A stretch of DNA of 37,641 bases from positions 1 through 37,641 of IMG/VR virus record IMGVR_UViG_3300010371_000072; one strand, given 5' to 3'. The notes beneath the pieces were generated by a model. It was not told the DNA's origin. It made no database searches and saw only the letters and a list, made by a program, of their open reading frames with translations. This document shows, piece after piece, positions 14,413-37,505 of the stretch; position 1 is the first letter of the stretch, and each line of letters starts with the position of its first letter. Made by a program: the position numbers and the translations under genes. Source of the DNA: a virus.

Positions 14413-14449
14413 TTGTCCCAAATTTTTGTCAAAACAATAATTGCCACAC

Positions 14450-16027
14450 ATGAAAAAAGCGATCGGTTACATCAGGATCAGCACCAAAGATCAAAGCAAC
14501 TTCTCTCTTTCAGGTCAGGAGAAATACATTCGTGAATATGCCAGCCAGCACAGCATTGAGATAAGCTCACTGTTTACTGACGAAGGAAAATCAGCGAAAA
14601 ATTTTGATCGCCCGGACTGGAAATTGCTGGAAAAATTTATCGAAAAACATCACCGTGATATCGATTATCTTATCGTAGCAAAGTATGATCGTTTTTCCAG
14701 GAACGCCGCTCAGGGACTTTCCAAAATAGAACTGCTGGAAAGAAAATTTAAGATCATCATTGTATCAGTATTTGAGCAAATGTTTATTGATTACGATTCG
14801 CCTTTTTTCTTCAAACAACGTGCAGACATGCTGATCAGCGCTGAATTTGAATGGCACGTTATCCGCGATCGCACAAGGTTTGGCAACCACAATGCACGCA
14901 GCCAGGGAAGATATTTGGGAGTGGCGCCATTCGGTTATAAAAATGCGCGTGACGAACAAAACAAACCCATCCTGGTAATGGATGAAGCAAAGGCCAACAT
15001 CATTAAAAATATTTATGCAGGATTTCTCCGCGGCACCTCATTCACAGAATTGAGCAAAGCGGCAAGAAGCGAAGGTTTAACCAATTCCGGCAGATCCGCC
15101 ATACAACGCATACTTACTAACCCTGTTTATGGCGGATTAATCTTCGTGGCAGCCTACAAAAAAGAAGCCGCCAAATATGTGAAATCCATTCACCAGGGAA
15201 TTGTTGCTGAGCACACATGGTGGCAGGTGCAGCAACTGATGAATAAAGGCAAAGTGCGCACGATAATAAATGATGAAGTGCCGATGCGCTCTGTGTTACA
15301 TTGCCATTGCGGCCATCCATTAACGGCCGGAAACAGCAAAGGGAAAACAAAATACTATTGGTATTATAAATGCAACAAACACCCTGAAACAAGCTACAGC
15401 GCCGTAACGTTACACAATCAGTTTGATGAACTTTTATCGAATCTTTCTTTATCAAAAGTTCACATTGATTTCCTTCGTGAAGATGCGCGGAAAGAAATGG
15501 AATTGCAGCTTCAAAACCGCGACGCAGAATTGAAGGAATTGAAAAAAGAATTGCACACGAACACCACTAACATGCTTTCACTGGAAGAAAAATTTATCAC
15601 CGGCATTATCCAGTCGGACACATATAACAGATGGCACAGTAAGTATTCTGCGACTGAATCGCATCTGCGCTATCGCATCGAAAGCCTCACCGGCGACAAC
15701 CAGTTAGCCTGGAAGCTTTTCGATAAGGAATTACCTAAGCTTTCTGACATGCGCTTACTTTATTCATGGGCCACTGTCCCCCAAAAACAAACATTCATTC
15801 GGATGGTGTTCAACTCACAATTGCGCTATGAAGAAGGTGTCTATCGAACACCCTATTTGCTACCGTTCTTTTCGCTGAACACCGCGTCATTAAAGGAAAA
15901 AAGGCTGCTCGAAGTGGAGCAGCCAGAGGAAGAATTTGGAAAAATTGTTGGAAGTACCCCCACCGGTACTTCAATTGAACTCTCCACACAATTTCTTTCT
16001 CTTATTGCGCAGATAAAGGCTGCGTAA
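14450..16027 (+). CDS. large serine recombinase (phage integrase)
   Basis: The 525-residue site-specific recombinase should join attP to attB and, with a directionality factor, excise the prophage. The catalytic domain has YIRISTKDQ with the nucleophile Ser11 and Arg9, and AKYDRFSRN with Arg81/Arg84. A recombinase domain follows (about 165-260, 'GFLRGTSFTELSKAA', 'ILTNPVYGG'). Next come a zinc-ribbon remnant (CHCGHPL and a later YYKC, about 285-310) and a coiled coil (about 345-385). ATG 14450 is chosen over a TTG at 14441 because MKKAIGYIR is the normal start. The last 40 codons overlap a tRNA-like attP candidate and a reverse-strand terminator. The promoter carries operator O2. Confidence 0.92.
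   Translation: MKKAIGYIRISTKDQSNFSLSGQEKYIREYASQHSIEISSLFTDEGKSAKNFDRPDWKLLEKFIEKHHRDIDYLIVAKYDRFSRNAAQGLSKIELLERKFKIIIVSVFEQMFIDYDSPFFFKQRADMLISAEFEWHVIRDRTRFGNHNARSQGRYLGVAPFGYKNARDEQNKPILVMDEAKANIIKNIYAGFLRGTSFTELSKAARSEGLTNSGRSAIQRILTNPVYGGLIFVAAYKKEAAKYVKSIHQGIVAEHTWWQVQQLMNKGKVRTIINDEVPMRSVLHCHCGHPLTAGNSKGKTKYYWYYKCNKHPETSYSAVTLHNQFDELLSNLSLSKVHIDFLREDARKEMELQLQNRDAELKELKKELHTNTTNMLSLEEKFITGIIQSDTYNRWHSKYSATESHLRYRIESLTGDNQLAWKLFDKELPKLSDMRLLYSWATVPQKQTFIRMVFNSQLRYEEGVYRTPYLLPFFSLNTASLKEKRLLEVEQPEEEFGKIVGSTPTGTSIELSTQFLSLIAQIKAA
15897..15924 (-). terminator. intrinsic terminator on minus strand inside recombinase 3' end
   Basis: Read on the minus strand, GGCTGCTC-CACTTC-GAGCAGCC forms a perfect 8-bp stem followed by TTTTTT. 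It lies 26 bp beyond the tRNA-3'-end-like core at 15951-15972 in the same reading direction. After integration into a tRNA gene it would act as the terminator of the rebuilt tRNA. Confidence 0.6.
15951..15972. other. attP core candidate (tRNA 3'-end mimic)
   Basis: GAAGTACC-CCCACC-GGTACTTC is a perfect 8-bp inverted repeat, a shape expected for serine-recombinase sites. GTACCCCCACCGG read in reverse resembles the acceptor/T-stem end of a Bacteroidota tRNA. In the recombinase it is translated as GSTPTGTS, much like the GTPTGT peptides that occur where recombinase genes run through tRNA ends (established from memory). The rest of a tRNA is absent, as expected for attP. Confidence 0.5.
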
Positions 16028-16341: not shown

Positions 16342-18858
16342 GTGGCAGAAGAAAAAACCAATCAATCATTTTTCCACAAGCGTTTGGATCCGTTGGGCGT
16401 GACGGATGAAAATAACTCAATTTCCCTTTGGCAAAACGATATCAATAATAAGGATTCGCACGAAGAAATATTGGTGCCCGTGCCCATCTTTCGCGAAGTG
16501 CCTGAAGGAATAGAAATTGCACTTTACACGTTGGATCGCCTGCAGATCACTTATTCAAAGGAAGGCACCAAAGCGAAAAAGAAATTTTCTATTATTCGCC
16601 TGGAAAAACCTGTTACCCGCCCCGATGGATCAGTGATGAAATATAAGTTGCCAAAGGGCGCCGGTACGCATCCATTTTTCCCGCCTGCTTTGGTTGACAG
16701 GTACGACAAAAAAGAAAAGTTCAACATTCTTTACCTGGTGGAAGGATATTTCAAAGCCTGGTATGCAAGCTTGAACGGTGCAAACATTGTTGGCCTTAGC
16801 AGCATCACGCACATGAAGAATCTGGAAACCGGCAAGTTGCATGATGATATTTTAAAATTGATGTTGGCGTGTGATGTAAAAAAAGTAGTGTGGCTAACTG
16901 ATGGCGATGCGATTGATATTACTCAGAAGGAATTAACTGATGGTTTGGATCTTTCCAAACGGCCAAAACAATTCTTTGGAACGGTTTCCACGTTCAAAAC
17001 TTTGCTGGATGATTATGAGCATCTGGAAAAATGGTTTTTTCACATTGATACAGATAATATTCTTTCCACGCACGCTGGAACACTGCGTGATCATGTAAAA
17101 GGCATTGATGATCTGCTGATGACGCTGGATAATGAGAAAAGCGAAATCATGATGGATTTGCACACGATGCAGTCCGGAAGCTATTTTCAAAAGTTCAATA
17201 TTACGTATTCCACCAGCAAGGCATACACCCATTTTCATTTGCGCGATGTGAAAGATTTTTATTTATTCCACGCGGAACGCCGGCCCGAATTGAAAGGCAA
17301 AGAATTCATTTATAATGGAACAAGGTATCAATACAATGAAGAAACCGGCGATTGCGATGTGAAGATCCCTGGCGCGGCAAAACTATATTTCCGTTGTGGC
17401 GATGATTATTTCAAATTCGTTCAAATGCCTAACCAGTACAAGCAGCTGGAACGCACTTTTCATTCTCGCAAAAAAGGAACGATCACGGATGATCACGGCG
17501 CCAAGTTCACGAAGTTCATTCCGAAATATGAAGCTTTTTGCAACGTTCCTGATCACTTCAATTTTGAACAGGTAATTCATAACTGCTTTAACGTTTATTC
17601 GCCTTTGGATTTCATGCCTGATGAAGAAAAATGTACGGAAGATGATTGCCCTACGATTATGAATTTCATCCGGCATTTGTTTGGAGAAAAGATGGTTTTT
17701 TATCATGATTCAGAAACAAAAGAAAAGCTGGAATACCGCACCATGGATTTGGCGCTGGATTACCTGCAGCTTCTTTACCAACAGCCGCAACAGAAGCTGC
17801 CGATCGTTTGCCTGGTGAGCCGTGAAAATAATACCGGTAAATCCACATTTGCAAACTTTTTACGCATGATGCTTGGCGCGAATACTGCAATAGTTGGCAA
17901 CGCAGATCTGCAATCTGATTTTAATGCACATTGGGCAACAAAAAGTGTGGTAGTGTGCGATGAAACGAAGATTGATAAGCAGCAAGTGGTTGAAAAAATA
18001 AAAAACCTTTCCACGGCCCGCAAAATATTTATGAATGCGAAAGGACGCGGCCAGGTTGAACTGGATTGCTTTATCAAATTTGTTTTGATTACCAATAATG
18101 AAGATTCTTTCATTCATGCCACTGATGATGATATCAGATATTGGGTAATAAAAGTGCCGGTTTTAACGCAGGAAAATCCAACCATTTTAGATCAGATAAA
18201 AGAAGAAATGAGCAGTTTTCTTTCTTTACTGCAAAACAGGAAATTGGCCACGAAGCTTGAAAACAGGATGTGGTTTCATCCTAAACTTTTGAAAACTGAT
18301 GCACTCAATAAAGTGATCGCATATAGCCAGCCACAAGTGGAAAAAGAAATGCGGCATTATCTGAAAGAATTGTTCCTGGATACCGGTGTGAATGAAATAT
18401 GGATGACAACCGATGAAGTGCATAAGGAAATATTTAAAAATAGTACCCGATATGAGCGCTATTATTTGCAACGAATTATTAAAGACAACCTGAAGTGTGA
18501 CACCTATCATTTATTTGAAGTTGATGGCATCCCGAAAAAGTATAAAACGGAAGAAGAAGCCATTGCCGCTTGTGAAGTAAAATATCCGGATGCAACAGGT
18601 TACCTGGCACTTGCAAAAATTAAAAAGTTCCATACGGTGGCGCGATATACTTACCCACGCATGGAAAAAGTAATTACCGATGGCAAGGAAGAAACCAAGC
18701 GCATAGAAGTTACCGGCCACGGACGTCCGTTTATTTTCCACCGGAAAGATTTTGTAAAAGATGAAGATAATGTGGTGGTAACGCCTGAAGATCTGCTGAT
18801 CAATTCAATGAGCATGAACGGCGCTGAAACTGTAAAAGCTGATGATCAACCTTTTTAA
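16342..18858 (+). CDS. primase-helicase (TOPRIM + SF3 D5-like helicase)
   Basis: This 838-residue replication protein has an N-terminal TOPRIM-like region with the Glu motif YLVEGYFKAW (about 131-140) and the acidic strand VVWLTDGDA (about 176-184). The C-terminal superfamily-3 helicase has Walker A SRENNTGKST (about 493-502), Walker B VVVCDETKID (about 535-544) and a sensor FVLITNNED (about 577-585). A D5-type winged helix probably follows. It should unwind and perhaps prime phage DNA as a hexamer. The start is a GTG with no nearby ATG. No separate DNA polymerase is seen, so host polymerase is probably recruited. Confidence 0.85.
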   Translation: MAEEKTNQSFFHKRLDPLGVTDENNSISLWQNDINNKDSHEEILVPVPIFREVPEGIEIALYTLDRLQITYSKEGTKAKKKFSIIRLEKPVTRPDGSVMKYKLPKGAGTHPFFPPALVDRYDKKEKFNILYLVEGYFKAWYASLNGANIVGLSSITHMKNLETGKLHDDILKLMLACDVKKVVWLTDGDAIDITQKELTDGLDLSKRPKQFFGTVSTFKTLLDDYEHLEKWFFHIDTDNILSTHAGTLRDHVKGIDDLLMTLDNEKSEIMMDLHTMQSGSYFQKFNITYSTSKAYTHFHLRDVKDFYLFHAERRPELKGKEFIYNGTRYQYNEETGDCDVKIPGAAKLYFRCGDDYFKFVQMPNQYKQLERTFHSRKKGTITDDHGAKFTKFIPKYEAFCNVPDHFNFEQVIHNCFNVYSPLDFMPDEEKCTEDDCPTIMNFIRHLFGEKMVFYHDSETKEKLEYRTMDLALDYLQLLYQQPQQKLPIVCLVSRENNTGKSTFANFLRMMLGANTAIVGNADLQSDFNAHWATKSVVVCDETKIDKQQVVEKIKNLSTARKIFMNAKGRGQVELDCFIKFVLITNNEDSFIHATDDDIRYWVIKVPVLTQENPTILDQIKEEMSSFLSLLQNRKLATKLENRMWFHPKLLKTDALNKVIAYSQPQVEKEMRHYLKELFLDTGVNEIWMTTDEVHKEIFKNSTRYERYYLQRIIKDNLKCDTYHLFEVDGIPKKYKTEEEAIAACEVKYPDATGYLALAKIKKFHTVARYTYPRMEKVITDGKEETKRIEVTGHGRPFIFHRKDFVKDEDNVVVTPEDLLINSMSMNGAETVKADDQPF

Positions 18859-18861
18859 ATT

Positions 18862-19284
18862 ATGGAAGTAAAGAAAAACATTACAAAAGGTGTTTGTGCA
18901 ACAAAATTTTGCAAAAACAAAACCTATGGACGGAAACACTGTTCCACCTGCCGTTGCAAGAAAACACGGCAAGCTGATCCGGTAAAGTATGCATATCAAA
19001 GCCTTCGTAATAATGCAAAAAGAAGAAACATTTTATTCACGATCACATTGGAACAATTTCGCGAATGGTGTTCCAAAGTTATTTACATCGGCTTCAGTGG
19101 AAGAAGATCCACCAGCTTCACCATAGACCGCCGCCACAATGATATCGGTTATCACATTGATAATATTGAAGTGATGGAAAAAGGTGAAAATGTAAAGAAG
19201 TTTTTTTATTACGACTATCGCACCAGGCAAACATCTTTTATGGTGCATAAAGAACAGCAATCAACTGAACCAGATTATTTCTAA
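18862..19284 (+). CDS. HNH-like endonuclease with N-terminal zinc motif
   Basis: The 140-residue protein opens with a Cys-rich region (CATKFC and CSTC, about 12-32) that can bind zinc. It continues with 'LRNNAKRRNILFTITLEQFREWC' and ends with TIDRRHNDIGYHIDNIEVM (about 90-108), the 'DR..N..GY...N...V' signature of phage HNH (His-Me finger) proteins. It may nick DNA or be a homing-type relative. The usual catalytic His pair is not fully certain from sequence. It starts 3 bp after the primase-helicase. Confidence 0.7.
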   Translation: MEVKKNITKGVCATKFCKNKTYGRKHCSTCRCKKTRQADPVKYAYQSLRNNAKRRNILFTITLEQFREWCSKVIYIGFSGRRSTSFTIDRRHNDIGYHIDNIEVMEKGENVKKFFYYDYRTRQTSFMVHKEQQSTEPDYF

Positions 19285-19300
19285 TTAAACCAAAAAACAA

Positions 19301-19498
19301 ATGCCACAAAAAGAAATCACATTCAAAAAGCGCCGCGCTGAAATCAATATTGATGAATTGGCAACTATCATGGTAATGCTGAGAAAGTACAGCAAATATT
19401 GGGAAGAGCATTACGGCTATTCTAACCGGGTGAATAAAAAGAACTGGGAAGCAAAGGCCGATGCCTGGATAAAGAACAATGTAAATAATCAATTATGA
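19301..19498 (+). CDS. small hypothetical protein
   Basis: This is a 65-residue basic, helical protein (EINIDELATIMVMLRKYSKYW). It overlaps the following gene by 4 bp (ATGA), so the two are coupled. No family is recognised. Confidence 0.55.
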   Translation: MPQKEITFKKRRAEINIDELATIMVMLRKYSKYWEEHYGYSNRVNKKNWEAKADAWIKNNVNNQL

Positions 19499-19767
19499 TA
19501 TACACACCCGAAACATTGAAAAAAGTATGGGATGCTGTAAAAAATCGCAGCAAGTTAAAAGATGTAATGGCTCAATTTGGCTGGTCAAAGGAAGAAGCGA
19601 TTGAAGCTTACCACCAGGCGTGCAAATTATTTGGCCGCGGCCCACGACCGGTGAAAATACCAAAAGTGCAATCGATGGAATTTCGGAAGATGCCAAAGAA
19701 GTGGAAACGTGCGCCGGCGCAATATTCGAATGGTGGATACCTGGATACTTTAAATAAATACAGGTAA
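19495..19767 (+). CDS. small HTH-like protein, last gene before the cassette array
   Basis: This 90-residue basic protein has 'NRSKLKDVMAQFGWSKEEAIEAYHQACKLFG' (about 17-47), which reads as a helix-turn-helix. The C-terminal half is Lys/Pro rich (RPVKIPKV, MPKKWKRAP), suggesting DNA binding. Its stop codon TAA is part of the first AAC core of the cassette array at 19765-19768, so the array begins at its very end. Confidence 0.6.
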   Translation: MIYTPETLKKVWDAVKNRSKLKDVMAQFGWSKEEAIEAYHQACKLFGRGPRPVKIPKVQSMEFRKMPKKWKRAPAQYSNGGYLDTLNKYR

Positions 19768-19960
19768 CGTCAAAGCATTGGCGATGCTTTGGCATTCAAA
19801 ACCCTTTCGCCGGAACAAAAGCAAAATTAAAAATCTAAAATTGATATTATGAACAAAAGCAAAATCGAAGCTGGTCAGCCGGAACAGGTGACAGTAAACG
19901 AACAAAAAGCCGATATTATTCCTTCAGCCCAAGTATCCGCCAATGCACTTGTTGTCGGCT
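19762..19960 (+). repeat. attC-like recombination site 0 (array entry)
   Basis: The arms are GCATTGGCG (19775-19783) and CGCCAATGC (19938-19946), a perfect 9-bp stem. Pairing continues inwards with a single-base bulge, and an outer TAAC/GTT pair sits at 19765/19951. The central loop carries an A-rich stretch and the ATG at 19849 of the next ORF. Arm order, unpaired spacers and AAC...GTT ends match the architecture of integron attC sites, but the length (about 199 bp) is greater than usual. Confidence 0.7.
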
Positions 19961-20271
19961 GTACGGTTAGAGAAAATAATGCAAGCATAAAAAAATATCT
20001 TGAATCACTTTCAAAACTTATACCTATTGAATGGGATAGGTTTACTGAAGATGAAGATGGGGATTTCAATATTTACGGATGGATAAAAAGAAAAGATGGA
20101 CAAAGGGATTTTGTTTTATTAAACCTTTTTTTAGAATATGGGAATATCCGTTCTTATAAATCAGGGTTTGCGACATCCTCAGCTAAATATAGCAAGACGA
20201 TTTATATGTGTCTTTACGGCACTACTAAAGGTCATAATAGTTGCCGCAAAATTGAAAGTCTGGTAGTATAG
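19849..20271 (+). CDS. cassette A: leader-fused hypothetical protein
   Basis: This 140-residue ORF starts inside attC-like site 0. Residues 1-34 are encoded by the site and are low-complexity and hydrophilic (MNKSKIEAGQPEQ, NEQKADIIPSAQV). The cassette proper begins at Val35, the GTT of the site. The remaining 106 residues (IPIEWDRFTEDEDGDFNIYGW, FVLLNLFLEYG) form an alpha/beta protein of unknown function with no Met of its own near its start. The stop TAG touches the inverse core GCCGATAAC of the next site. Start GTTGTCGGC and end GCCGATAAC are inverted repeats with one mismatch. Confidence 0.6.
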   Translation: MNKSKIEAGQPEQVTVNEQKADIIPSAQVSANALVVGCTVRENNASIKKYLESLSKLIPIEWDRFTEDEDGDFNIYGWIKRKDGQRDFVLLNLFLEYGNIRSYKSGFATSSAKYSKTIYMCLYGTTKGHNSCRKIESLVV

Positions 20272-20473
20272 CCGATAACGGCCACGTATTTGCGATGGGC
20301 TGGAAATAAACGAACAGTCAGCCCAAAACGTCAGCTAAATTAAAAAACTAAAAATCAAAAATATGAACAAAAGTAACATCAACGAACTTTCAGCCGAAAC
20401 CGAAGCTGATAGTAATTCAAAAGCTAAAAATCAGCAGGTCAGCCAGCCTAACGCAAATACGAATGTTGGCAGC
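20271..20473 (+). repeat. attC-like recombination site A
   Basis: CGTATTTGCG (20285-20294) pairs perfectly with CGCAAATACG (20452-20461). After one mismatch the stem continues to GGCTGG/CCAGCC (20298-20303 / 20443-20448), about 19 bp in all. The outer cores are AAC (20277-20279) and GTT (20465-20467), separated from the stem by unequal unpaired spacers of 5 and 3 bases, as in integron attC sites. The loop holds AAATTAAAAAACTAAAAATC and the start ATG at 20363. Confidence 0.75.
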
Positions 20474-20737
20474 AGTCAATCTTTCAACAAGTCCGAAGCT
20501 GGGAAATATTACGAAAAGTCGAAGCACCAGGACGACTGGGGTGTTGATGTTGTATATCCTTATTCTGTTGAAAATATAATTGAATTATCTAAATACGAAG
20601 GCATTTTGCTCGGATTAAAAATATGTAAAGAAATGTTTGCACAAGGTCAGATAAGCCATGACAATATTTACGAAAACGAAATCTATTATCGTGAACTTTT
20701 ACAAAATAAAATGGATGAACTAATGTTGGACACCTGA
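20363..20737 (+). CDS. cassette B: leader-fused hypothetical protein
   Basis: This is a 124-residue ORF. Residues 1-34 come from site A and begin MNKSNINELSAETEAD, similar to cassette A's start MNKSKIEAGQ and equally hydrophilic. Val35 is again the GTT of the site, so the ATG-to-GTT distance (102 nt) is identical in A and B. The cassette part is an acidic helical protein (GVDVVYPYSVENIIELSKYE, LLGLKICKEMFAQG) of unknown function. Its ends GTTGGCAGC (20465) and GCTGCCAAC (20740) are perfect 9-bp inverted repeats. Confidence 0.6.
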   Translation: MNKSNINELSAETEADSNSKAKNQQVSQPNANTNVGSSQSFNKSEAGKYYEKSKHQDDWGVDVVYPYSVENIIELSKYEGILLGLKICKEMFAQGQISHDNIYENEIYYRELLQNKMDELMLDT

Positions 20738-20739
20738 TT

Positions 20740-20935
20740 GCTGCCAACGGTCAGGGCTTGGCGATGGGCTGGAATAGAAATCGTTCAGCCGAAACAAAAG
20801 TAAAATTGAAAAACTAAAGATGATGAAAATAGAAAATGTTGATAAATGTTCGTCTGCTGGAACAACTGCTGATAGTGAACTACAGCCGATTGACTTCCGT
20901 CAGCCAGCCTATTGCCAAACCCCATGTTATGCGCC
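20740..20935 (+). repeat. attC-like recombination site B
   Basis: TTGGCGATGGGCTGG (20758-20772) pairs with CCAGCCTATTGCCAA (20904-20918) over 15 bp, with only two G-T wobbles. The outer cores are AAC (20746-20748) and GTT (20926-20928). The loop carries an A-rich leader and the tandem ATGATG at 20820. The 5' arm sequence GCGATGGGCTGGAA is shared with site A, while the cassettes between are unrelated. Confidence 0.75.
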
Positions 20936-21497
20936 GTCTATCGTGTTTCTCGACATTGATGGGGTGTTCAATTGTCAACTTTTTTATAGCAGCAAACAGT
21001 TTCAGAACTACAGAGAAGCAAAGAAACAGTTGCGTAAAGATGTAAAAGCAAAACGAATTGAAAGGCTCGAATATTATGCAAGTCAGATTTGTAAAGAACG
21101 AGTTCAATGGTTTAATAAATTATGTGAAGAAGTAAATGCTGTTGTTGTTATTTCTTCAACTTGGCGGCAAAATAAAACTGTTGGGGAACTTCAAGAAATA
21201 ATGGATTACTGCGGCGGTAATTTTAAAATTATTGATAAGACACCATACACGGGTTATGAGCGTGGAACAGAAATATCAAAATGGTTGCATGATAATATTA
21301 AACCTGAAATACACGGTTGCCACTATTATGATTTTCATCGTTACGTGATTATTGACGATGATAGTGATATGCTGTTAAATCAAAGGTTTAATTTTTTTCA
21401 GACAGACAATTATTCTGGTCTTACACCGAATACTTGCTATAAAATAAAAAGATTTTTAACTGGCCGCACTTTCGGACTGTCTGCCGATGGCGCATAA
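20820..21497 (+). CDS. cassette C: HAD-superfamily phosphatase-like protein with attC-encoded leader
   Basis: This is a 225-residue protein. Residues 1-36 are encoded by site B. The HAD domain starts almost at once with SIVFLDIDGVFN (Asp45 nucleophile, Asp47), then motif II in VVVISSTWRQ, RGTEISKWL, and the acidic motif YVIIDDDSDM. It resembles the HAD family found in RNA-repair 'Swiss army knife' proteins. A normal HAD protein would start two or three residues before SIVFLDID, so the native Met is missing and the leader replaces it. The GTT of the site is one base out of the frame phase used in A and B. The ends GTTATGCGCC and GGCGCATAAC are perfect 10-bp inverted repeats. Confidence 0.7.
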   Translation: MMKIENVDKCSSAGTTADSELQPIDFRQPAYCQTPCYAPSIVFLDIDGVFNCQLFYSSKQFQNYREAKKQLRKDVKAKRIERLEYYASQICKERVQWFNKLCEEVNAVVVISSTWRQNKTVGELQEIMDYCGGNFKIIDKTPYTGYERGTEISKWLHDNIKPEIHGCHYYDFHRYVIIDDDSDMLLNQRFNFFQTDNYSGLTPNTCYKIKRFLTGRTFGLSADGA

Positions 21498-21530
21498 CTC
21501 ATATATGTACCCCCCGCTCATAATTACTTA
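21489..21530 (+). repeat. half attC-like site at the array end
   Basis: GGCGCATAAC (21489-21498) overlaps the stop codon of cassette C and is the exact inverse of that cassette's first ten bases. It is followed by TCATATATGTACCCCCCGCTC. No matching 3' arm or GTT core is visible within the next 250 bp, so the last site appears truncated or differently built. The 89 bp up to the tyrosine recombinase hold nothing else I can assign. Confidence 0.45.
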
Positions 21531-21586
21531 ACTTTTAAATACTTACAAATGGACACTGTACAAGCTGAAAAATTATTCGTAAACGA

Positions 21587-22378
21587 ATGCAATCAAAGAA
21601 CTGGAGCCAAAGCACTATTGATAATTATGCTTCGCAGGTGCGTTGTTTTTTGAGAGAATTTAAATCGCGTGACCGGGCGCGCAATATTACCGCTGATGAA
21701 ATTGAAAAATATCTTTTGCAAAAAGTTCAGATCAACACGCGCAAACATGCCAGATGCGGTATCCAGGCTTTTTATAAACTGGCCATAAACCAGCCAATGA
21801 AACTGGCGCACATTCCCTGGCCTAAAAAGGAAAGAAAATTACCACAACCTATTGATGCCAGTGACGTGCAAAAGTTGCTGAAGGTTTGCACCAATTTGAA
21901 ACATAAAACCATCATTGCGTTGTTATATGGCTGTGGGCTGCGTGTGAGCGAAGTAATTAATATGAAGATAAAAGATATTGACAGCACTAAAAATATCATC
22001 AATATCATTGCCGGTAAAGGCAAAAAAGACAGGCAGGTGATGCTGGCGCCGGAATTGCTTTCGCTGCTTAGAAAATATTACCAGGCTTACCGGCCCAAAG
22101 AATATTTATTTAACGGACAGTTTGATCTGCAGTACAGCGACCGAAGCATTAATGAGTTTTTGAAAAAATATGCGAAGCTGGCCGGGATAAGGCAGAATCT
22201 TCATGCTCATTTATTGCGTCATTGCTTCGCCACTCATTCATTAGAGCAGGGCACGGATATCAGCCTGATTCAAAAACTGCTGGGCCATAACAGCATTAAA
22301 ACGACAATGATTTACACGCATGTGAGCACCAACATCATTGCCAATACTCATTCACCATTGTCAAGTCTTGCATTGTAA
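21587..22378 (+). CDS. XerD/IntI-like tyrosine recombinase
   Basis: This 263-residue site-specific recombinase has an N-terminal SAM-like core-binding domain (1-75) and a complete catalytic set: Arg119 (GCGLRVSE), Lys in GKGKKDR (144-147), His208 and Arg211 (HLLRH), His234 (LLGHN) and Tyr243 (TTMIYTHV). The end HSPLSSL resembles the SPL(D) end of integron integrases and Xer relatives. It lacks the roughly 20-residue insertion before HLLRH that marks IntI, so it is not a canonical integron integrase. It lies directly after the cassette array in the same direction. The phage also has a serine integrase, so this enzyme is free for another job such as moving the cassettes. Confidence 0.85.
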   Translation: MQSKNWSQSTIDNYASQVRCFLREFKSRDRARNITADEIEKYLLQKVQINTRKHARCGIQAFYKLAINQPMKLAHIPWPKKERKLPQPIDASDVQKLLKVCTNLKHKTIIALLYGCGLRVSEVINMKIKDIDSTKNIINIIAGKGKKDRQVMLAPELLSLLRKYYQAYRPKEYLFNGQFDLQYSDRSINEFLKKYAKLAGIRQNLHAHLLRHCFATHSLEQGTDISLIQKLLGHNSIKTTMIYTHVSTNIIANTHSPLSSLAL

Positions 22379-30247: not shown

Positions 30248-31441
30248 GTGAAAATAAGCACCGTACTTTCTTTATTGCGTGACAACTGGATGATGACTGA
30301 ATCTTCTATCCAGGCTTATGCTGACCTTGCCAAAGAATATTTGTCAGGCAATGAGATCAGTACCGGTTTCTTTTCAAAACTCGCTCTTCCGAATGTTCCG
30401 GATAATATTGCACTGATCCCGATCAATGGCGCCATGACCAAATCAGATATTTGTGGCGGCATGGGAACGCGCTCCTTAGCAGCTGCAATTAACCAGGCTG
30501 CAGCAAATCCTTCAAAAAACTCTATCATTTTATATTTTGAATCCGTACCAGGTGGCCAGGTGGATGGCACTGAAGTATTGGCCAATGCCGTGAAAGCAGC
30601 AAAGGACATGAAACCGGTATTATCCGCTGTTTCAGGTTTGATGGCCAGCGCGGGTGTTTGGGTAGGATCTCAAAGCACTGAAATATTTGCCACATCAGCA
30701 ACAGATCAGATCGGTTGTATTGGTGTGATGGCAAAATTGAGAAACCCGGCAACAGCCAGCAATGATACCATTGATGTGGTGAGTGATCTTTCGCCAGATA
30801 AAAATGCTGAGTTCAAAGATGTGCAGATCTTAAAAGATATGTATCTGAACCCGGTTGCAGCCATGTTCCAGGATGCTGTAAAGGAAGGCAGAGGCGATAA
30901 GCTGAAAGCTGGTGATAAAGTATTAACCGGCGGAACTTTCATAGCAAGTGAAGCCAAAAAGAATGGATTGATCGATGGCATAATGCCATTTGACAAAATA
31001 GTAAAAAGAGCGAATTATTTAGCAAAAAAACAAAATCAAAATACTATGAGCGCGACAAAACAAAATATTGCGACAGCAGCAGAATTTCCTTTCAAAAATG
31101 TATTAGCCGCTGCAAAGGTGGAAGCCCTGGCACCGGTGGAAGAAGGGTTTGCAATGAGTGAAGAAGCATTGACCACCTTAGATGCACGCATCGTGGAATT
31201 GAATACTGCTGAAGCTTCACTGGCAACAGCCAACACACGCATCACTGAATTGGAAGCAACAGTGGCTGAAAAAGAAACTGCCATCACAGCATTGAATAAA
31301 ACTGTTGCCGATTATACTGGAAAGCCAGCGCCGGTAACTGCTGATCCTGTTGTGAAGAAAGATGCTGAGCCGGATCCGAAAGCGAAATATTTAACCAGTG
31401 TTGATGAGGAAGCTGCGAAGCTTGCTGCCAACTGGGAATAA
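30248..31441 (+). CDS. S49 prohead protease fused to scaffold
   Basis: This 397-residue protein has an N-terminal SppA/S49-type serine peptidase fold (about 50-255). Strands ALIPINGAM and IILYFESVPGG lead to the catalytic Ser motif VSGLMASAGVWVGSQ (about 129-143), followed by 'DQIGCIGVMAK'. This is the lambda gpC type of capsid protease. The C-terminal 130 residues are a coiled coil rich in Ala/Glu (about 305-350) with an acidic tail, as in scaffolds. An in-frame ATG at codon 267 (31046) could give a separate scaffold. The GTG start follows promoter copy 4 by 4 bp. Confidence 0.8.
   Translation: MKISTVLSLLRDNWMMTESSIQAYADLAKEYLSGNEISTGFFSKLALPNVPDNIALIPINGAMTKSDICGGMGTRSLAAAINQAAANPSKNSIILYFESVPGGQVDGTEVLANAVKAAKDMKPVLSAVSGLMASAGVWVGSQSTEIFATSATDQIGCIGVMAKLRNPATASNDTIDVVSDLSPDKNAEFKDVQILKDMYLNPVAAMFQDAVKEGRGDKLKAGDKVLTGGTFIASEAKKNGLIDGIMPFDKIVKRANYLAKKQNQNTMSATKQNIATAAEFPFKNVLAAAKVEALAPVEEGFAMSEEALTTLDARIVELNTAEASLATANTRITELEATVAEKETAITALNKTVADYTGKPAPVTADPVVKKDAEPDPKAKYLTSVDEEAAKLAANWE
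31046..31441 (+). CDS. nested scaffold protein candidate
   Basis: An in-frame ATG (MSATKQNIAT) sits after the A-rich stretch CAAAAAAACAAAATC at the border of the protease and coiled-coil parts. Translation from here would give a 131-residue coiled-coil scaffold, as lambda Nu3 is made within gene C. Only the position and context support this. Confidence 0.35.
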   Translation: MSATKQNIATAAEFPFKNVLAAAKVEALAPVEEGFAMSEEALTTLDARIVELNTAEASLATANTRITELEATVAEKETAITALNKTVADYTGKPAPVTADPVVKKDAEPDPKAKYLTSVDEEAAKLAANWE

Positions 31442-34103: not shown

Positions 34104-37100
34104 ATGTCCGATTTAGCAAGAAAAACCGCGAGTATTTATATTGATAACGAACCTGCAAAACAGGCGCTGATCAATTTGCAAACCCAGGCTGATAAACTAA
34201 CTGACAAGATCACTAAGGGAACAGCGGCCGGTAAAAATATGAATACCGAATTGGCAAAGCTGGATAAAGTAAAAACACAAATTGCCGGTGTTCAAAGCCA
34301 GATCGACCAGGGATTGCGGCCGTCATTCAATCAATTGGCATCTGCCGCCAGCAAGGCCAATGCTGAGTTGAAGAAGATGAGCCAGGATGATCCGGGATAT
34401 GCAAAGAAAGCTGAACAGGTGAGAGCCTTGAAGGGAGAGTTGGGCAATCTTTCCGGACAAATAAATACCGTGAAAGAAAGCAGTGAATCTTTTGCCGGAA
34501 GCTTTGGAAAAATATTTTCCCGGGTAACGGAATATCTTTCTGCTTATGCGATTTTGGAAGGGCTAAAAGAAATTTTTAAAAGTTCCATTGAGGAAGCGGA
34601 TCAGGCAGAATTAGCAACTGTAAACTTGAAAAACGCTTTGGATAATGTTGGCAGAAGCGATTTGTTTGACAAGTTTACGGCCAGCGCTGAAAAGTTTTCT
34701 AAAAGTTTTAAAGCGATAAAGGATGAAGATATTAAGGCTGTATTTACCAAGCTGATTGATTACGGAAAGCTGACAGAATCCCAAATTAATACGCTTCTTC
34801 CAATTATTGTAAATTATGCCGCAAAGCAGAAAATATCGCTTGCTGATGCTTCTGATGCGATAACCAAAGCGCTTGAAGGAAATGCGAAATCTTTAAAAAC
34901 GTATGGCATCAATATTACGGCCGCTAAAACAGTAACGGAAAGATTTGGAGTTATTGTAGATGACCTGGGCCCAAAAATTAAAGGCGCTGAAGTAGCATTT
35001 GAAAGTACCGGCGCCGGCGGCATGGCAATTTTCAAAGAAAATCTGGATAAGCTAAAAGCAAAAATCGGGGAATTTCTTTATTCACTCGTGTCTGTTAAGA
35101 CATCGGCTGATGAAGTGTTTGATACAGCAAAAGAAAAAACTGAAAACTATAAAAACAGTTTACAGCCATTGCTGGATAGGTATGATGTTTTGAAATCAAA
35201 AACATCGTTGAATAAAGATGAACAAACTGAATTGCAAGGGATCATTCAAAAGATTGTTGAAATACTTCCATCAGCCGCAACAGAACTGGATAAATATGGC
35301 CGAGCACTGGATATTAATAAACAAAAAGTAACTGATTTTCTGGATGAAAATAAAAAGTTCCTTGCTGAAAAAGAATTCAAAGCTGTTGATGAAATCACAA
35401 GCCGAACATTAGTAACACTACAACAAATTAACAAGCAAAGGGATGAATTAAATAGGGGAGTTATTTTAAGGACTAACGCCGGCGGCGGGCTTCCTTTCGA
35501 AAGTAAAGCTTCGCTGGAAGAAACGCAGCAACAAGTTTCTGTGTTAAGAACCATGCAGGAAAAGCTGATCAATGATGCATCTACTTTAACCGATAAATAC
35601 GGAAAAAAATTACCAGCCGCGGTGCAAGCCGCGGTCGATGCGATTAAAGGAGAATTTGCGGCCATCGCTTCAGTAAAGCCGAACACGCCTGAAACAATAA
35701 TTGGGAATGGCGATCCGAATGCAGATGCTGAAGCAGCAAAGAAAGCAGAAGAAGCAAGAAAGAAAGCCGAGCAGGAATTTAAAGCGTCTCTTGCACGCGC
35801 TGATGCATTTCGTAAACAGGCACTGGATGAAATTGCGAAAGCCAACCAGGATGAAATTCAGCTTCTTAAAGATAAATACAAAAGCGAAGCCGATGATCAA
35901 ACAAAATCTCTTGCTGAAAGATTTGCGGCCCTGAAGTCCTATAATGATGCCGGTTTAAAGTTAATTGAGGTAACGAAGGCCGGGCAACAAAATGCATTGG
36001 ATAATGAAATTGCTACCGATAAGAAGAATGCCAAATCAAAGCAGGAACTGGATGCTATTGAACAATTGAGAATTGCAAAGCAGGCAGACATTGACAAGCA
36101 ATATGCATTATCTGTTTCAAATTTTAAAATTGAAGTTGCTCAAAAATATACTCAGGTTGCTCAGCAGGAATTTAAGAAGCAAACAGATCTGATTGATAAG
36201 AATTATAAGCATCAGGTTGAAGTGTATGAGCAGCTTCAAAAAGACAAGGCCAATAATATTTCCATCGATACTGACAATAAATTGTTGGCCCTGGATAAAG
36301 CTTTCCAGGATGGTAAAATAAAGAATCTGAAAGATTATCAGAAGCAATATGATGACATAGTACAGGCGGGGCATCAGAAGGAATTGCAGCAACAATTGCA
36401 AACGCTGGAAACTCTTCAGGCATTGTTGAAGTTTTATGGGTTTAAGAACACGAATATTGATAAGCAGATTGCAGATAAGAAAGTTGAAATCAATAAAAGT
36501 GCAATTGATCAAACGGCGAAGGATGATCAGGCCGCGCTGCAAAAGAAATTGGAATTTGCTCAATTTGTTATTGGCGCGGCGCAACAGGTAGCCAGCATTA
36601 TCACTTCCATCAATGACGCGAAAAATGCACAGGATGAAGCTGAGTTGGCAGACAACCAAAAGCGTTTGGATGCTAATACCAAAAAGCTGGATAAGGAGTT
36701 GGCAAAAAATCTCATTAGCCAGAAAGAGTATGATCGACAGCTGAAAGCTTTGCAGGATAAGAAAGCGAAGGAAGATGAAGCAATAAAGAAGAAAGAATTT
36801 GAAAGGAATAAGCAGGCGCAAATTATCCAGGCGATCATGTCAGGGGCCCAGGCGATTGTTTCTACATTAGCAGCACGGCCAGGCTTTACAGACATTATCA
36901 GTTTGGGTGCATTCCGGGCGATTAATATTGCGTTGGCAGTTGCAACAACAGCGGCCCAGGTTGCAACAATCTCTTCACAGAAATATGCAAAGGGTGGTTT
37001 GTTTGACGGGCCTTCCCATTCGGAAGGTGGGATGCCGATTGTAAATCCACACACCGGTAAAAAAGTTGCAGAAGTGGAAGGCGGTGAACCTATATTGAGT

Positions 37101-37505
37101 AAAAAGACTTATGCCAATAACCGGGAATTAGTTGATCAGTTGTTACAATCCAGCATGTATGGCAACGGAGCCCGGATAACTCCATACTGGCAGCAAAGAG
37201 CATATAAACCAATAAACTATTCAGGTATTACCAGAAGCATGGATCGTGTGAATTATTTTGCTAAAGGCGGTATTTTGCCAACCGTTTCAGCGGATTCATC
37301 TGATAATGCAGTTAAGGATGCGCTCATTCAATTAAAATCCAGCGTTGACACAAATACGGCAGTTGTAGTTGCTTTAATTCCTGCAATCAATGCAATGAAT
37401 GAACGAGCCAGCCAACCGGTGAAGGCGTACACACTTCTCAGCGATTCGAATGCAACGCAGGCATTTTATGACAGAATAAAAAAGGAAACAACGATTACCA
37501 GGTAA
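34104..37505 (+). CDS. tail tape measure protein
   Basis: This 1133-residue, mostly helical protein sets tail length. It has long coiled-coil stretches (about 15-130, 535-700, 750-905). A hydrophobic region with small residues (about 905-955, IIQAIMSGAQAIVST to AINIALAVATTAAQVA) may enter the host membrane. The end has the typical Gly-rich tape-measure motif KYAKGGLFDGPSHSEGG with GEPILSKKTY (about 957-1005). At roughly 0.15 nm per residue the tail would be near 170 nm. It is followed by a terminator. Confidence 0.9.
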   Translation: MSDLARKTASIYIDNEPAKQALINLQTQADKLTDKITKGTAAGKNMNTELAKLDKVKTQIAGVQSQIDQGLRPSFNQLASAASKANAELKKMSQDDPGYAKKAEQVRALKGELGNLSGQINTVKESSESFAGSFGKIFSRVTEYLSAYAILEGLKEIFKSSIEEADQAELATVNLKNALDNVGRSDLFDKFTASAEKFSKSFKAIKDEDIKAVFTKLIDYGKLTESQINTLLPIIVNYAAKQKISLADASDAITKALEGNAKSLKTYGINITAAKTVTERFGVIVDDLGPKIKGAEVAFESTGAGGMAIFKENLDKLKAKIGEFLYSLVSVKTSADEVFDTAKEKTENYKNSLQPLLDRYDVLKSKTSLNKDEQTELQGIIQKIVEILPSAATELDKYGRALDINKQKVTDFLDENKKFLAEKEFKAVDEITSRTLVTLQQINKQRDELNRGVILRTNAGGGLPFESKASLEETQQQVSVLRTMQEKLINDASTLTDKYGKKLPAAVQAAVDAIKGEFAAIASVKPNTPETIIGNGDPNADAEAAKKAEEARKKAEQEFKASLARADAFRKQALDEIAKANQDEIQLLKDKYKSEADDQTKSLAERFAALKSYNDAGLKLIEVTKAGQQNALDNEIATDKKNAKSKQELDAIEQLRIAKQADIDKQYALSVSNFKIEVAQKYTQVAQQEFKKQTDLIDKNYKHQVEVYEQLQKDKANNISIDTDNKLLALDKAFQDGKIKNLKDYQKQYDDIVQAGHQKELQQQLQTLETLQALLKFYGFKNTNIDKQIADKKVEINKSAIDQTAKDDQAALQKKLEFAQFVIGAAQQVASIITSINDAKNAQDEAELADNQKRLDANTKKLDKELAKNLISQKEYDRQLKALQDKKAKEDEAIKKKEFERNKQAQIIQAIMSGAQAIVSTLAARPGFTDIISLGAFRAINIALAVATTAAQVATISSQKYAKGGLFDGPSHSEGGMPIVNPHTGKKVAEVEGGEPILSKKTYANNRELVDQLLQSSMYGNGARITPYWQQRAYKPINYSGITRSMDRVNYFAKGGILPTVSADSSDNAVKDALIQLKSSVDTNTAVVVALIPAINAMNERASQPVKAYTLLSDSNATQAFYDRIKKETTITR

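Follow-up and report, generated by a model that had tools for sequence, protein, structure and literature searches.

The cassette array in the window

The subject of this analysis is a putative integron-type array of gene cassettes, together with the tyrosine recombinase gene beside it, in a stretch of 37,641 nucleotides of viral DNA (IMG/VR record IMGVR_UViG_3300010371_000072), the whole of which is here called the window. Three copies of a long repeat of 177-185 nt, each with an AAC on the left and a GTT on the right, alternate with three cassette bodies on the plus strand. The region was read directly from the sequence, and sites were measured between their AAC and GTT cores. A sequence-only reading of this DNA had proposed an integron-like cassette array within a temperate phage; the array, sites and cassettes that it listed are all found here, to which are added the recombinase, an attI-like motif and a separate serine integrase, none of which it mentioned. 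The positions that it gave for the three sites are close to those measured (19769-19950, 20280-20464 and 20749-20925).

The first attC-like site, site 0, occupies 19766..19950 with its AAC core at 19766-19768, and is the weakest of the three; its arms, GCATTGGCG/CGCCAATGC, pair over 9 bp, and it would belong to mobile unit 1. The body of cassette 1 follows (19951..20279), with ends GTTGTCGGC..GCCGATAAC (8/9 paired, one G.T; stem score 12.8), and its open reading frame (ORF), at 19849..20271, encodes an unknown protein of 140 aa from a start codon located within site 0, 102 nt before GTT. Site A (20280..20464) has arms CGTATTTGCG-A-TGGGCTGG with one extrahelical A and spacers of 5 and 3 nt; the arms pair 20285-20303 with 20443-20461. 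The arm lengths reported earlier were right for site 0 and for site B (15 bp), while the 19 nt of site A match at 89% and contain two mismatches, not one. Cassette 2 (body 20465..20748, ends GTTGGCAGC..GCTGCCAAC, stem score 13.0) carries an ORF at 20363..20737 for a second unknown protein, of 124 aa, that starts within site A, again 102 nt before GTT. Site B, likewise bounded by AAC and GTT (20749..20925), precedes the body of cassette 3 (20926..21498, ends GTTATGCGCC..GGCGCATAAC, stem score 12.0). The ORF of cassette 3 (20820..21497) starts within site B and encodes 225 aa with a HAD domain that belongs to the Swiss-Army-Knife RNA repair type (PF18143, E 1.2e-21); its stop codon, TAA, overlaps the AAC core that closes the array. 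That AAC opens the attI-like site (21496..21512), in which it is followed by TCATATATGTACC.

The ends of each cassette match each other and differ from those of the other cassettes, as the sequence-only reading had observed. Those of cassette 2 (GTTGGCAGCAGTCA/TGATTGCTGCCAAC) and cassette 3 (GTTATGCGCCGTC/GATGGCGCATAAC) pair along 13-14 nt, where no more than one position departs from Watson-Crick pairing. The arrangement was scored with a purpose-written detector that links two kinds of part into a chain: cassettes, which run from GTT to AAC and have ends that pair, and sites, which run from AAC through a spacer and an arm to the opposite arm, a second spacer and GTT; a first version without chaining returned many chance pairs, and the chain score was used instead. 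The best chain of alternating cassettes and sites in the window scores 44.6, against a median of 10.6 and a maximum of 18.4 in 200 first-order Markov copies of the window. In the canonical integron of Vibrio sp. HDW18, taken as a positive control, the same detector finds a long chain in which cassette ends pair across 9-13 nt and sites measure 112-115 nt, so that matching of ends within a cassette is simply how integrons look. What looked like a further cassette of 1170 nt before site 0 (18599-19768) was dismissed as an 8-bp match within the primase gene. The exact motif TTGGCGATGGGCTGGAA has seven matches in viral contigs, all by chance and in GC-rich coding DNA (one of these contigs, L061, has an array elsewhere; contigs and loci are referred to here by L numbers), and an Rfam search gave no match.

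Predicted folding, core and strand polarity

An attC site is marked by inverted R and L boxes that form a hairpin with unpaired spacers, and this feature is present in the window, with site 0 weak. When the two ends that would meet in a circular cassette are folded together, units 2 and 3 are predicted to form a stem of 14-15 bp that holds the AAC/GTT core, followed by the unpaired spacer and the L arms. The circle form of unit 2 (site A) has a dG of -31.6 (z -2.9) with one extrahelical A, and that of unit 3 (site B) a dG of -32.7 (z -2.3). The integrated form pairs less strongly, and the attC-type hairpin is thus steadiest with the circle ends.

The core itself departs from the classical GTTRRRY, as had been remarked before: a purine follows GTT in all but one counted cassette, and of 183 cassettes from Bacteroidota and phages only 6 have GTTRRRY, which leaves GTTR as the conserved core. 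In the folding strand, the arms of 44 phage sites contain 77 G.T pairs versus 9 A.C, and those of cellular sites 239 versus 12, a contrast that is inflated because the folding strand was picked by score, although its direction relative to the recombinase is still nearly constant. Read along this strand, nearly all loci have the same order: array, attI-like motif, recombinase. A TATAT-rich motif of variable sequence follows the last AAC beside the recombinase in most phage and many chromosomal relatives.

The adjacent tyrosine recombinase and the phage context

The tyrosine recombinase gene (21587-22378, plus strand) begins 89 nt beyond the AAC that closes the array and encodes 263 aa (PF00589, 1.5e-42) of Xer/IntI-like type, with the catalytic residues R, K, H, R, H and Y conserved. 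Among protein profiles, recomb_XerA_Arch (NCBIfam) gives 215.5 bits (cut-off 220), and the integron integrase profile TIGR02249 gives 186 bits (cut-off 265) in two pieces; in cellular relatives too the latter aligns just 2-179 and 240-315, below the cut-off. The IntI-specific insert of about 45 aa near patch III is present in all three IntI controls (L183, Vibrio IntI; L184, IntI1; L185, IntI2) and in none of the 27 other sequences aligned (the window and 26 relatives; alignment A1). The window recombinase thus falls outside the IntI family, and integron-like working does not hinge on that membership. In a tree of 110 rows, built by a quick method with SH-aLRT support only and with three IntI sampled, nearly all phage array enzymes form one clade (98), the chromosomal enzymes another (95), and the three IntI stand apart (99); the recombinase of the cultured Polaribacter phage Leef_1 lies on a long branch, near the phage clade and not in it. 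An AlphaFold model of the window enzyme has a mean pLDDT of 89, and its best PDB matches by Foldseek are IntI4 (2a3v, top) and XerA, with E values nearly equal. The chromosomal array recombinases L077, L098, L115, L116, L127 and L131 measure about 370 aa, of which about 100 form an N-terminal extension that none of the phage enzymes has.

This recombinase is not the sole integrase of the window phage. A large serine integrase (14441..16027, plus strand; PF00239 1.3e-23, PF07508; phrog_95 integrase) is encoded outside the array and is likely the phage's own integration enzyme, so that the tyrosine enzyme is probably not the integrase of lysogeny and is free to serve the array. The window is a phage genome, as a head maturation protease (30248-31441) and a tape-measure match (34104-37505) indicate, and its host, judged from relatives, is probably a member of the Bacteroidota. 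Since the recombinase adjoins the array, the latter is not a cluster of attC sites lacking an integron integrase (CALIN).

Arrays in related phages

A scan of viral contigs with the window recombinase yielded 59 loci. In L002, whose recombinase is 75% identical, six cassettes lie directly upstream of the recombinase gene and none is like those of the window. Arrays are found at the same position in L004, L007, L009/L010, L012, L014, L015, L016-L018, L020, L021, L022, L024 and L026, in the phage Leef_1, and in L005, where a single cassette (GTTATCTTTCAGTTG .. CAATTGAAGATAAC) was overlooked by the detector through a 1-nt slip. With duplicates counted once and the window included, 16 distinct phages have the recombinase with an adjacent array, and their cassettes differ; the check for the same sites with other cassettes that the sequence-only reading had called for thus came out in its favour, and no fixed three-gene order was seen. 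The clade members without an array (L003, L006, L008, L011, L013, L019, L023) all have a contig end less than 300 nt from the recombinase. Contigs often break just upstream of this gene, as expected if assemblers fail on variable arrays, and arrays are therefore probably under-sampled. The more distant recombinases (L030-L060) include chains of 20-26 in L030, L038 and L041 that are false positives or other arrays and that set the noise level; the weak array-like chains of L038 and L041 score 21 and 26.

In the sequenced flanks, of up to 8 kb, L002 and nearly every other locus have no detectable gene in common with the window beyond the recombinase; weak matches to other window genes occur only in L011, L015, L016 and Leef_1. 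This near-absence of other common genes implies that the module sits in unrelated phage backbones. Conversely, L205, which is a relative of the window in its backbone (serine integrase 59%), has neither array nor such a recombinase in its contig.

The HAD gene of cassette 3 recurs. Its relative in L194 (73% identical) is again a cassette, starting with GTTATGTGCC, with a frame that again starts within the site, and is followed by cassettes unlike those of the window. A cassette chain likewise holds the relative in L195 (76%), whose reading frame, however, begins within its cassette. Homology among these three genes begins at the cassette start and not in the leader. In L196-L203, other mostly large phage contigs, the HAD gene occurs without an array (the detector was run on L196, L197 and L201). 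L061, L194 and L195 have cassette chains with no such recombinase in the contig and are in this respect CALIN-like.

Orientation of cassette genes and cargo

Cassette genes of phages mostly point with the folding strand (47 with, 8 against; 41:6 without duplicate contigs), whereas those of cells point against it (14 with, 119 against). Phage cassettes are thus turned round, with the site upstream (5′) of the gene, and cells keep the canonical relation, with attC at the 3′ end of the gene; both this inversion and the recombinase without the IntI-specific domain amend the sequence-only reading. All three window ORFs start with an ATG located 102-106 nt before GTT, within the site, and read through into the cassette with similar leader peptides (MNKSxI). 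Where a frame enters the cassette start, an in-frame ATG is present within the site in 19 of 27 phage cassettes. A unit that carries site and gene together would keep its reading frame on transfer. Phages may select cassettes that need no promoter of their own to be expressed from the rightward operon.

The cargo scan covered about 20 phage cassette proteins, of which about half are unknown. DNA methylases are cassette products in L002, L004, L007 and L194, and a prokaryotic viperin gene forms a cassette in L022 (L022:6132-6956, E 4.6e-90). Other products are a relative of RNA ligase 1 (L004), the HAD RNA-repair protein (window, L194, L195), an SspD-like protein (L007) and, by a weak match, an ASCH-domain protein (Leef_1). 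Judged from these protein families, the phage cargo looks like an arms-race toolkit.

Bacteroidota chromosomes, plasmids and erm(F)

When bacterial genomes were scanned with the recombinase, 80 loci were obtained, nearly all from Bacteroidota. More than 30 chromosomal or plasmid loci have an array beside the recombinase, and these arrays reach 12 cassettes; examples are L090 (Flavobacterium sedimenticola), L131, L127, L142 and L115. Among 100 genomes sampled from the family of L090, 71 have the recombinase (E <= 1e-55), and 16 of the 30 of those inspected, in 1.5 kb of flank only, reach a cassette-chain score of 12 or more, a lenient threshold. No canonical IntI above the family cut-off was found in the 14 array-bearing genomes tested. 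One array, in L131, holds a pair of short cassettes (167-168 nt) whose ends are identical (GTTACTTGCAGGCC); the system itself may have produced this duplication.

Boundaries of the mobile unit can be read from the resistance gene erm(F), which on the Flagellimonas plasmid L181 lies in a cassette adjoining the recombinase. A block with exactly the limits AAC-site-GTT..erm(F)..AAC is common to five replicons, from Flagellimonas (L181), Myroides (L189), Parabacteroides (L190), Sphingobacterium (L191, where an insertion sequence interrupts the block) and Riemerella (L192), and its flanks differ on both sides in each. To the left lie a dihydrofolate reductase cassette, ere(D), plasmid genes, tet(X2) or an uncharacterised cassette, and to the right the recombinase, blaOXA-347, plasmid genes, floR or a serine hydrolase cassette. 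In the Arenibacter plasmid pSMS7 (L188), which also carries this recombinase, similarity to the erm(F) query begins at the AAC next to the recombinase and extends only to the right; the breakpoint between L181 and L188 thus lies at this AAC, which corresponds to the one that opens the attI-like site of the window. These breakpoints define the mobile unit: the cut falls at AAC, and each unit comprises a site together with the cassette body that lies 3′ of it on the folding strand.

Several other resistance genes were noted in such surroundings. Cassette ends of this kind enclose erm(F), ere(D), tet(X2), blaOXA-347 and a dihydrofolate-reductase-like gene on the Bacteroidota plasmids L181 (6715-7884), L189, L191 and L192; floR comes right after a site. 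An Acinetobacter indicus plasmid (L193:3001-3137) has one such site between tet(X5) and estT, which suggests that the two genes left the Bacteroidota together with a piece of an array. On a Klebsiella plasmid (L187:2142-2753) a truncated relative of the recombinase (40% identity) lies beside blaVEB-3, near qacEdelta1/sul1.

Proposed mechanism and alternative explanations

Taken together, the locus is very probably an integron-type cassette platform of a temperate phage, run by the adjacent tyrosine recombinase. This reading draws on a chain score far above chance, on arrays with differing cassettes beside relatives of the recombinase in phages, chromosomes and plasmids, and on the Vibrio control, the unit boundaries of erm(F), the recurring HAD cassette, the strand polarity, the separate serine integrase and the conserved catalytic residues. 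The sites, the private cassette ends, the conserved link to the recombinase, the cassettes that differ between phages and the exact unit boundaries in plasmids are directly observed. The sequence-only reading had named as contrary outcomes the same three genes always in the same order, or a missing attC-type structure with no other genome in which the repeats bound different genes; what was found instead is the same recombinase and type of site around different genes, and a predicted hairpin that forms best with circle ends.

In the mechanism that we propose, the recombinase would recognise a folded single-stranded hairpin made of the site and both private ends of its cassette, with strand exchange at the AAC/GTT core. 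The mobile unit would be the site plus the cassette body 3′ of it on the plus strand, cut at AAC, and circular excision would join the two private ends into a perfect hairpin. New units would enter at the attI-like AAC|TCATATATG beside the recombinase gene. In phages, with the site upstream of the cassette gene and on the same strand, a captured gene would be expressed by the phage operon running through it, the site providing, in the window, the start codon and a short leader. The cargo would then be a swappable set of genes, many of them for the arms race (DNA methylases, RNA repair, viperin).

Several observations weigh against this reading. The circle form of unit 1 (site 0), with a dG of -25.7 and a z of -1.0, scarcely exceeds shuffled sequence. 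The ATG at 21549, which matches the start of the L002 recombinase, is out of frame by 1 nt, so that the window ORF starts at the internal ATG 21587; relative to its nearest relative L002 the enzyme thereby loses its first residues, and this copy may be impaired, or the shift may be a read error. A search for relatives of cassettes 1 and 2 found none, and these two are only putatively mobile: the same cassette in other contexts, with breakpoints at the core, appears for the array family and not for the window's own cassettes 1 and 2. The breakpoints themselves come from plasmid relatives rather than from the window phage. The strand used, excision as a circular intermediate, the place of insertion and current activity in the window phage are deduced by comparison.

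The first two of these points could also mean that the array is a true one of this kind that is now a fossil in the window phage, given the loss of the first recombinase residues and the degenerate site 0; since the remaining ORF is intact, with all catalytic residues and a well-predicted fold (pLDDT 89), and sites A and B fold well, such decay seems unlikely. A canonical integron (IntI with attC sites) captured by the phage from its host would explain the shared site logic, the detector result obtained with Vibrio and the top structural match to IntI4, and phage integrons are known (PMC9892861). Against it stand the insert, absent in 27/27 non-IntI members of the family and present in 3/3 IntI, the split TIGR02249 match under the cut-off, the separate position of the three IntI in the tree (99 support) and the core, which is GTTR and not GTTRRRY. 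As the IntI-specific domain is absent, the locus is not a canonical integron, and a captured one is quite improbable. Strongly disfavoured, finally, with hardly any probability left to it, is the view that no recombination system exists and that regulatory leaders, each a start codon with a hairpin, were duplicated before unrelated phage genes with an integrase adjacent by chance: the three ORFs do start within the repeats with similar leader peptides and a phage operon reads through, but the ends match within and differ between cassettes, the erm(F) units have boundaries, the serine integrase is separate, and this recombinase is accompanied by such arrays, holding other genes, in 16 phages and at more than 30 loci on chromosomes or plasmids.

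Beyond the phage-borne platform itself, we lean slightly towards a broader view in which these loci represent a second, separate integron lineage in Bacteroidota and their phages. Its Xer-like recombinase would have split off before IntI gained its domain, or the same trade would have evolved independently. The lineage would be present in most Flavobacteriaceae and near-absent from published surveys, would be swapped among unrelated phages with its cassette genes reversed to suit phage operons, and would be a capture route for erm(F) and probably for tet(X), ere(D), blaOXA-347 and floR. From the sequences compared, the platform appears to be common in Bacteroidota and to move resistance genes such as erm(F), and to have been barely recorded by integron surveys. 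Definitions of integrons, and the software that looks for them, rely on the extra IntI domain, and if this view is true the integron census misses much of a phylum. It would also give phages a general route for swapping counter-defence genes singly, would account for the assembly of erm(F) and its neighbours in Bacteroidota plasmids, and would make the role of the IntI domain directly testable, because natural enzymes seem to do the job without it.

Comparison with known systems

Like canonical integrons (the Vibrio chromosomal type and classes 1 and 2), the array has a tyrosine recombinase beside it, an AAC/GTT core, a hairpin of R-spacer-L type (in most members about 112-120 nt long), ends that match within each cassette and a candidate attI-like site next to the integrase gene. 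It differs from them in a recombinase without the IntI-specific domain, in a GTTR core with later positions free, in ends paired over 9-16 nt, in unequal spacers (5 and 1-3 nt), in a polarity given mostly by G.T pairs, and in phage genes that point to attI and often start within the site. XerA, XerC, XerD and XerH are closest by profile and likewise lack the insert; these enzymes act at one short dif-type site, whereas the partner of the window enzyme would be an array of variable hairpin sites.

Integrons and CALINs are known in phages, including a CALIN in the flavobacterial phage Polaribacter P12002L (Qi et al. 2023, PMC9892861), and the complete and In0 cases have an IntI of Vibrio, Shewanella or class 1 type that came from a host or plasmid (PMC9892861). 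The window resembles them in having a cassette array within a phage genome, and it differs in that its platform appears to be a module of a phage lineage, with its own recombinase clade, in unrelated backbones. Archaeal integrons, which also lie outside the classical bacterial groups and were also recognised late, are stated to have IntIs with the IntI-specific domain (PMC9668308), unlike the recombinase family described here. A survey of 22,301 chromosomes with IntegronFinder 2 lists a single complete integron for Bacteroidetes, that of Salinibacter ruber, and otherwise In0 elements only (PMC9024848). A literature search, with preprints and most subscription papers outside it, found no description of this recombinase family as an integron enzyme or of erm(F) as its cassette. 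What emerges, as read from sequence comparison, is an apparent integron-type cassette system with an Xer-like recombinase, which in phages seems to carry mainly unknown and arms-race genes.

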